Assembly (NCBI GenBank): GCA_030065815.1
Contig: JASJCU010000002.1
Coordinates: 1 to 64,000, forward strand
DNA: 64,000 nt
Direction: 5' to 3'
From: Gammaproteobacteria bacterium
Lineage (GTDB): Bacteria; Pseudomonadota; Gammaproteobacteria; Chromatiales; Chromatiaceae
In this document: in pieces, positions 16,896-63,356 of the stretch
Layout of the letters: the number at the start of each line of letters is the position of its first letter
Position numbering within the stretch: the first letter of the stretch is position 1
Notes under the pieces: generated by a model
The model's input: only the letters and a program-made list of their open reading frames with translations
Told to the model about the DNA's origin: nothing
Database searches by the model: none
Program-made: the position numbers and the translations under genes

Positions 16896-16971
<76 letters not shown>

Positions 16972-60017: not shown

Positions 60018-60278
60018 TTGGCCAACTCAGTACAAGCCCGCAAGCGCGCGCGCCAGGCCGAGAAGCGTCGCCAGCACAATGCCGGTCGCCGCAGCATGAT
60101 GCGCACCGAGCTCAAGAAGGTCGACGCCGCGATCGCCGCCGGCGACAAGTCCGCTGCCGAGGACGCCTACAAGTCGGCGGTACCGGTGCTCGACAGCCTG
60201 GCGACCAAGGGCCTGATCCACAAGAACAAGGCCGCACGCCACAAGAGCCGGCTGAACGCCAAGATCCGCGCGCTGTAA
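60018..60278 (+). CDS. rpsT: 30S ribosomal protein S20
   Basis: 86 residues. The start is TTG at 60018-60020 with AGGAGA upstream; rpsT of E. coli also uses [33 protein letters not shown] and [19 protein letters not shown] are S20 throughout. The ORF track hides it at the end of a long false ORF. The UUG start is linked to autogenous control in E. coli; the same may hold here. It is divergent from murJ, as usual. Confidence 0.97.
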
Positions 60279-60303
60279 CGGCGCCCTGGCGACCGAAACG
60301 ACA

Positions 60304-60331
60304 GAAGCCGGCCATAGCGCCGGCTTTTTTC
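60304..60331 (+). terminator. Rho-independent terminator of rpsT
   Basis: AAGCCGGC-catagc-GCCGGCTT followed by a T-run, about 25 bases after the rpsT stop. It separates rpsT from the sRNA promoter region. Confidence 0.92.
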
Positions 60332-60352
60332 CTGGCCGAGGCCTGACAGCAC

Positions 60353-60370
60353 TGTAGGCTTTTTCCTACA
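60353..60370 (+). promoter_or_regulatory. GacA/UvrY-like upstream activating box
   Basis: TGTAGG-CTTTTT-CCTACA, a perfect 6+6+6 palindromic site. The established GacA site is TGTAAG-N6-CTTACA, so this differs at one symmetric position per arm. It is centred about 60 bases upstream of the predicted sRNA start, as in rsmY promoters. It lies between the rpsT terminator and the GGA-rich RNA. Confidence 0.75.
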
Positions 60371-60421
60371 CCACGACCCGATCCAGGTTATTCCCACGCC
60401 GGGTGTGGGTATTGGAGAATG

Positions 60422-60547
60422 TATCTGTCGTCCACAAGGATGCAAAGGACTGTCAATTGCGCCCGGAGGCGCCGCAGGGACCAAGGATTTGCCAACCAAG
60501 CCTGACGACACTAAACCCCGAGCGTAGGGATGCGTTCGGGGTTTTTT
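60422..60547 (+). ncRNA. candidate Csr/Rsm-family small RNA (rpsT-proB spacer)
   Basis: About 126 nt, starting after a TATTGG -10-like box (60410-60415) and ending at a T-run. It has six GGA motifs: AAGGATG, AAGGACT, CGGAGG, AGGGACC, AAGGATT and AGGGATG. GCGCC-CGGA-GGCGC presents GGA in a hairpin loop, and the terminator loop is GGGA. Size, GGA density, loop placement and the GacA-like box upstream match RsmY/RsmZ-type decoys of CsrA/RsmA. No ORF with a ribosome site overlaps it. CsrA and GacS/GacA are not in the window. Confidence 0.8.
60514..60547 (+). terminator. Rho-independent terminator of the rpsT-proB spacer sRNA
   Basis: A 13-bp stem AACCCCGAGCGTA/TGCGTTCGGGGTT (two G-T pairs) with loop GGGA and then six T. 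The GGA in the loop parallels the terminator of the 57.4-kb sRNA. Confidence 0.93.
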
Positions 60548-60826
60548 CTGCGCGCCGTTGGAACAGGCCCGGGCCCGCCCTTTGTACGCGCATTCGGCCA
60601 ACCTGGGTGTTCACCGCCGCCGTGGCGCCGACCCGAAGCGCGAGCCATAGCCGCAGCCGTGGCCTGAGTGACAGCCAGGCCGCAGCCAGCGAGAAACCGC
60701 AGGCCTACGCACAGCACGGCGCGGGGTGGCAACGGCAAGGTCCGGTTGTTCGCCGCAGCTGACGAAAACCATAGAAGTGTCCGATCGGCACAGGGCTGGC
60801 GCTGGTCGGCCCAGGCCATACGCCGG
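60548..60826. other. intergenic region between the sRNA and convergent proB
   Basis: 279 bases with no believable gene. The 102-residue minus ORF at 60511-60819 lies across the sRNA terminator and has no recognisable domain. I see nothing else specific here. Confidence 0.35.

Positions 60827-63356
<2,530 letters not shown>

Follow-up and report, generated by a model that had tools for sequence, protein, structure and literature searches.

Background

Few post-transcriptional regulators of bacteria have a reach as wide as that of CsrA, and the sponge RNAs that antagonize this protein are seen as protein decoys, with the csrA mRNA being left to autoregulation by CsrA. Here we consider a 64,000-nucleotide stretch of a genome of the Chromatiaceae (Gammaproteobacteria bacterium, assembly GCA_030065815.1, contig JASJCU010000002.1, positions 1 to 64,000 of the forward strand), hereafter the window, and, within it, a predicted RNA gene between rpsT and proB that resembles the sponges of the Csr/Rsm systems and, in addition, carries a conserved element complementary to the leader of the csrA mRNA.

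Several described systems come close to this locus. In Escherichia coli, CsrA represses its own translation (PMC7652899), and the same organism contains single RNAs, namely McaS, GadY and Spot 42, that both pair with mRNAs and bind CsrA (PMC7652899, PMC10729762). In Pseudomonas, the GacA site of rsmY is located at -75 (PMC4950607), and another RNA, RgsA, which is about 120 nt long and starts with GTCG, depends on GacA (PMC2375449). A putative cis-antisense RNA to csrA has been predicted in Pseudoalteromonas (PMC11882849). In the literature searched, which covers part of the field, we found neither a Csr/Rsm sponge that pairs with csrA mRNA nor a Csr RNA of Sedimenticola-type and symbiotic sulfur oxidisers, Thiodiazotropha included.

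An earlier note on this stretch, prepared from its letters alone, had proposed a Csr/Rsm decoy-type RNA under GacA control. The proposal is supported by the conserved position of the GacA-type box, the GGA motifs, the covarying structure and the presence of csrA and gacA in the genome; however, the most conserved feature of the RNA, the csrA-complementary element, had been missed. We argue that the RNA is best explained as a GacA-activated CsrA sponge that would also base-pair with the csrA mRNA, a reading to which we assign a probability of roughly 0.8. The two features on which the argument turns are:

60427 to 60547, forward strand: RNA gene, putative Csr/Rsm-type sponge with a csrA-pairing element; predicted transcript of 121 nt, 5' end predicted
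60488 to 60502, forward strand: UUUGCCAACCAAGCC, the most conserved element of the RNA, outside the covarying helices and complementary to the csrA mRNA leader

Complementarity to the csrA leader

The element lies just 5' of the 3' arm of the helix that closes the RNA, near +62 to +76, and its unpaired fraction in single-strand folds is 0.64, versus 0.43 for the RNA as a whole. The csrA leader of this genome contains the complement site ACATGGTTGGCAAA, within which an 11-nt perfect match, TGGTTGGCAAA, starts 72 nt upstream of the csrA start codon. Throughout the genome, 12 sites match the reverse complement of UUUGCCAACCAAGCC at no more than two mismatches, one of them being the RNA gene, and this number does not exceed that obtained with the reversed control (15 versus 12 overall). 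Since the number of sites is at the control level, only the csrA site is claimed, and it is to be judged by its conservation.

For this purpose, csrA leaders were collected from 91 genomes, 66 of them carrying the RNA and 25 without a detected copy. A piece of GCTTGGTTGGCAAA of at least 9 nt is present in 54 of the former versus one of the latter (P 4e-12) or, when counted by genus, in 26/31 genera with the RNA versus 0/15 without it (P 3e-8); shuffled elements are present, on average, in 0.28 of the 91 leaders, and in at most 3. In nearly all of the 52 RNA-leader pairs, the best ungapped helix between the two molecules, of up to 17 bp, is formed by the element. With both sides of the pairs anchored independently, 548 of 645 cells are paired, as compared to 521 +/- 4.8 with permuted partners, and none of 5000 permutations was as good; with one pair per genus, the paired cells are 326.5 versus 308.6 upon permutation (P about 1e-4).

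Compensatory changes can be followed in individual genomes. Specifically, where other RNAs have AAGCC and other csrA leaders have CTTGG, genome G086 has AAACC in the RNA and TTTGG in csrA; in G073, AAUACCAACCAGG of the RNA stands opposite UCUGGUUGGUAUU of csrA; in G197, CGAACC of the RNA stands opposite GGUUUG of csrA; and in G016 and G153 changes are found on both sides of the pairing. The CCAACC core hardly varies and, hence, is silent on covariation, so that it is the flanks of the core, together with the pattern of presence and absence, that support the pairing. An extended -10 of csrA (TGnTAGAAT type) is located upstream of the pairing site in nearly all leaders, and the site is therefore predicted to be within the csrA transcript. 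A conserved, co-evolving complementarity of the RNA to the csrA leader is well supported by comparison across genomes.

Three csrA leaders from genera in which no RNA was detected (L217, L222 and L228; genera g27 and g72) contain GCTTGGTT at positions of about -115 to -122; possibly, these genera have a diverged RNA that the models missed.

The shared sequence could, in principle, have a cause other than pairing, such as a DNA site at which one regulator binds both genes, in opposite orientations, in which case the RNA would only sequester CsrA. Csr/Rsm antagonists are indeed known to act by sequestration alone (PMC7366521), and most of the conserved positions of the element are invariant and, hence, give no covariation signal. 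However, a location near +62 to +76 would be unusual for an operator, and the complementarity is kept by G-U pairs and compensatory changes, with newly extended pairing in G073, G016 and G072; we regard a sponge of this simple kind as very improbable here.

Distribution, structure and GGA motifs

By DNA search, the spacer was identified in 9/9 genomes of the genus, each time between rpsT and proB, and a covariance model, R1, was built from the alignment of the genus sequences. The most diverged of these, L012, was left out of R1 because MAFFT misplaced its 5' end; the model search recovered it. R1 matches 101 of the 210 genomes, in 31 of the 61 genera, of the family as delimited in the Genome Taxonomy Database (GTDB), and a second model, made of 30 sequences, matches 120/210 genomes and 38/61 genera, with up to five copies of the RNA per genome, some in tandem. 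At the present locus the two models match 60427-60546 (E 5e-22 and 9e-21), this sequence having been included in the building of both. At the order level, the search returned the same single family, and a class-wide sample of 369 genomes yielded four matches outside it: G049, G457 and G552, in at least three other families, keep an ACCAACC-type element, and G529 is a weak match that does not have it. A scan of named genomes for the element pattern gave 22 records, including Sedimenticola species, Ca. Sedimenticola endophacoides, the Solemya velesiana gill symbiont and metagenome-assembled genomes of Chromatiales.

In most other genera, as well as in G457, the RNA is located between typA and hisB, and the copy in G552 adjoins typA; the rpsT-proB location is shared by this genus and two others (g65, g66) and, given the prevalence of the typA-hisB site, probably results from a relocation. 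At one locus (L105; G155:C3 750586-755742), four copies of the RNA are found in tandem beside typA, some 300-450 bp apart; the boxes of these copies are at -95/-96 rather than -73/-74, and in the last copy most GGA motifs and the csrA element are gone.

The RNA consists of a helix that closes it, GUCGYC/GRCGAC, a GGA-bearing hairpin in the centre, and a terminator:

60427 to 60432, forward strand: 5' arm of the closing helix, GUCGUC, pairing with 60504 to 60509
60504 to 60509, forward strand: 3' arm of the closing helix, GACGAC, pairing with 60427 to 60432
60459 to 60472, forward strand: hairpin GCGCC-CGGA-GGCGC presenting a GGA; double changes in 4/4 modelled pairs
60513 to 60547, forward strand: intrinsic terminator with a strongly covarying stem and a GGA (60528 to 60530) in the loop
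60438, 60447, 60465, 60478, 60485 and 60528, forward strand: first positions of the GGA motifs of the transcript, the first motif being 60438 to 60440

In the alignment of 72 homologues, 96.0% of the helix cells are paired and 18 of the 21 modelled pairs show changes on both sides (379 double-changed cells, well beyond shuffles), whereas partners slid by 1-3 columns pair in at most 43.6% of the cells; this alignment was fitted to a covariance model, which favours structure, and the size of the difference is still large. One pair of the closing helix is exchanged between U-A and C-G on both sides in 21 of the 72 sequences. The GGA of the terminator loop is kept while the stem around it changes, in 30/30 sequences of alignment A5 and in 68/72 of alignment A6.

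The two GGA-presenting hairpins that the earlier note had described, the GCGCC-CGGA-GGCGC one and the terminator, are both present, and so are the six GGA motifs that it had counted (60414, 60438, 60447, 60465, 60478, 60485), all of them located 3' of the box and 5' of the terminator stem. The one at 60414 is upstream of the predicted start and, thus, outside the transcript, which contains six in total. In the spacer taken alone, six GGA motifs versus 3.0 expected (P 0.016) are weakly unusual for a single sequence, and their conservation carries more weight: among the 72 homologues, 67 hold at least 5, and most hold 5-7. The fold of the longer stretch that the note had singled out is less convincing (z -1.8), whereas the predicted 121-nt transcript folds better than 200/200 shuffles (z -3.2). 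The RNA family itself is, on the evidence of sequence comparison, well supported.

Promoter and GacA-type box

Upstream of the RNA, two putative control elements can be recognized:

60353 to 60370, forward strand: GacA-type box TGTAGGCTTTTTCCTACA, TGTAGG-N6-CCTACA, at -74 to -57 from the predicted start; putative activator site
60415 to 60420, forward strand: predicted -10 element GAGAAT; the family consensus is an extended -10, TGnCAnnnT

The box is the perfect palindrome that had been noted earlier, without a mismatch. The 3.9 Mb genome contains no other TGTARG-N6-CYTACA than TGTAGGCTTTTTCCTACA, but the reversed pattern used as a control likewise has one match, so that a single genome lends the box no significance; what makes it significant is its conserved position among the homologues. 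When up to 3 mismatches are allowed, 46 of the 72 homologues have a box at -75 to -72, and two groups of seven have one at -96/-95 and -52/-51, respectively, whereas about 8 boxes would be expected by chance over all 400-bp upstream regions together; about one fifth of the homologues have no box at this threshold. Within the genus, 9/9 genomes keep the palindrome, mismatched at no more than 2 positions, and it is located at -75 to -73 relative to the start of the RNA. The displaced boxes are shifted in steps of about 22 bp, that is, two helical turns, as would fit a real activator site. The promoters of the homologues have A at -11 in 57/72 cases, T at -7 in 63/72 and, in many cases, TG at -15/-14, and it is from the position of this extended -10 that +1 is placed at the G of GUCG. 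By analogy with the known systems, we infer that the box is the binding site of a GacA-family regulator that activates transcription.

At eight loci (L029, L032, L084, L086, L088, L101, L102 and L114), the box is intact in its CCTACA half only, the other half being TTCAG or TATCAG. Such half-intact boxes occur in many typA-hisB copies, as if the activator tolerated one degenerate half-site.

If this genome were the only one available, neither the box, with its one match of the reversed control, nor the number of GGA motifs would be striking, and a chance palindrome next to a GGA-rich spacer without any function could be envisaged. This explanation is contradicted by the conserved position of the box, the covarying helices and the wide distribution of the RNA, so that its probability is close to negligible. 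The box, the terminator and the GGA motifs are retained, in line with the expectation of the earlier note, both across the genus, in its syntenic rpsT-proB spacers, and in numerous further genera.

A different question is whether titration or pairing is the primary activity. As in the case of McaS and Spot 42, the RNA could be primarily a pairing RNA, with CsrA bound at the GGA sites helping or tuning the pairing and sequestration being secondary. However, a titrating RNA would better account for the six GGA sites, one of which is in the terminator loop, for the GacA-type box, whose distance is that of rsmY, and for the multiple copies, of which a genome may have up to five; this version is therefore improbable.

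The transcription unit and its surroundings

The neighbours of the RNA gene are as follows:

60018 to 60278, forward strand: rpsT (30S ribosomal protein S20), upstream neighbour; open reading frame (ORF) with an S20 sequence, found by tblastn to adjoin the RNA in the genus
60307 to 60330, forward strand: rpsT terminator, GCCGGC...GCCGGC followed by T6, between rpsT and the RNA gene
60827 to 61954, reverse strand: proB (glutamate 5-kinase), convergent downstream neighbour; from the ORF list and tblastn in relatives

With the rpsT terminator on the left, an arrangement also seen in most members of the genus, and the convergent proB on the right, the RNA appears to be a separate transcription unit. 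Judged in silico, it is predicted to be untranslated and separately transcribed, with its own -10 and an intrinsic terminator. A protein-coding function was considered and rejected: there is no conserved ORF, and a complete ORF is wholly absent in 27 of the 72 homologues.

Elsewhere in the window, the Rfam scan found a cobalamin riboswitch at 2560-2797 on the forward strand (91 bits, the gathering score being 31.5) and, as the sole further match, a tRNA gene at 16896-16968, also on the forward strand.

CsrA, GacA and the proposed mechanism

The partners that the earlier note had called for are encoded in the genome: there is one csrA match, downstream of lysC, which passes the NCBIfam CsrA models, and one response regulator that passes the curated cut-off of the UvrY/SirA/GacA equivalog (292 bits versus 280). 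The csrA leader of this genome (L001 1396-1501) contains seven GGA motifs, one of them directly 3' of the pairing site and another in the Shine-Dalgarno region, which is consistent with autoregulation by CsrA. Extra csrA genes are found in several genomes of the family, with up to ten matches in G131.

The following scheme can be envisaged. A GacA-family response regulator would bind the box at -74 and switch on the extended -10 promoter. In the resulting RNA, six GGA sites, including those in the hairpin loop and in the terminator loop, would, as their conservation suggests, sequester CsrA dimers, and UUUGCCAACCAAGCC would, on comparative evidence, base-pair with the csrA mRNA leader some 60-105 nt upstream of the start codon. 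Sequestration of CsrA should relieve the repression that it exerts on its own mRNA. Given the autorepression known from E. coli, the level of CsrA would tend to go up if CsrA were only titrated, and a pairing that lowers csrA output would make for a coherent response. The most likely role of the pairing, then, would be to lower the translation or the stability of the csrA mRNA and so to counter a rebound of CsrA. That the pairing represses csrA is the least certain step of the scheme, with odds just slightly better than even. In folds with the pairing site occupied, the accessibility of the ribosome site is predicted to be lower in most, not all, of 19 leaders (here it drops from 0.60 to 0.05), which hints, weakly, at repression.

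In terms of sequence the pairing is symmetrical, and it would take place far from the csrA ribosome site, so the effect might also run in the opposite direction: csrA transcripts would capture or destabilise the RNA, and rising csrA expression would limit its own antagonist. As is usual for Csr RNAs, however, the sponge would be expected to be the more abundant partner; we consider such a reversal unlikely, albeit not far-fetched.

Several observations weigh against a sponge that also pairs with the csrA mRNA. The pairing site is far upstream of the csrA ribosome site, and the predicted drop in accessibility is not uniform. The element is only moderately unpaired, 0.64 in the RNA, with the values for the leaders ranging from 0.2 to 0.7; CCAACC is absent from 11 of the 72 RNA copies, and a minority of RNA-bearing genomes show no clear pairing (e.g. 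G020, G107 and G018, the last with a truncated leader). The permutation of partners controls for phylogeny only in part, and the presence of the RNA was scored with a model that contains the element, so that RNAs without it may have escaped. Finally, sCache_4 (PF09984), the sensor domain of BarA/GacS, was not found in this genome.

With these points taken into account, it still seems quite likely that the RNA family acts on both the CsrA protein and the csrA message, so that a GacA signal would silence the existing CsrA and also control its resynthesis. If true, a sponge with a conserved csrA-pairing element would join the protein and mRNA levels in one molecule and explain how a rebound of CsrA synthesis is avoided upon titration of CsrA. 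The RNA also offers an entry point into the Gac/Rsm system of Sedimenticola-type and symbiotic sulfur oxidisers, and the approach is general: a search for the complement of the conserved unpaired stretch of a sponge may lead to its message target.

Comparison with known systems

The earlier note had suggested that the RNA be compared with the RsmY, RsmZ and CsrB families of Rfam. A search of 60250-60850 up to E 10 gave chance-level matches only, with no CsrB and no CsrC; RsmY (RF00195) and PrrB_RsmZ (RF00166) had no covariance match above the gathering score in the window or anywhere in the genome, and none of 14 representative homologue loci matched Rfam at the gathering score. Since it does not match these families, the RNA is to be regarded as Rsm-like rather than as a member of any of them. 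RgsA also had to be considered, but it contains a single GGA and no GacA palindrome, is RpoS-dependent and does not derepress hcnA; identity with RgsA was rejected on the basis of the single GGA, the missing palindrome and the lack of an Rfam match to this RNA.

CsrB and CsrC of E. coli share with the present RNA the titration of CsrA and control of the UvrY/GacA type, and CsrB also begins with GUCG. However, both are much longer, contain more GGA motifs and have no Rfam match with this RNA, and neither forms a significant helix with the E. coli csrA leader. McaS, GadY and Spot 42 differ in their targets, which include csgD, flhD and fucP, the csrA mRNA not being among the targets found in the literature consulted.

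The RsmY, RsmZ and RsmX RNAs of Pseudomonas (RF00195, RF00166) have in common with this RNA a length of about 120 nt, GGA loops, an intrinsic terminator and a palindromic GacA box, which here starts at -74, close to the -75 of rsmY. The differences are that the box reads TGTAGG-N6-CCTACA here, as against TGTAAG-N6-CTTACA in the Pseudomonas Rsm RNAs, that the gene neighbourhood is not that of the rsmY and rsmZ loci, as had been noted earlier, that a Pseudomonas-type RsmY scores just 14 bits with the model of this RNA, and that Pseudomonas-type RsmY and RsmZ do not have the CCAACC which is found in this RNA. What appears to be new, as compared to the known systems, is the presence of a putative csrA-pairing element in a Csr/Rsm-like sponge RNA family that is absent from Rfam.
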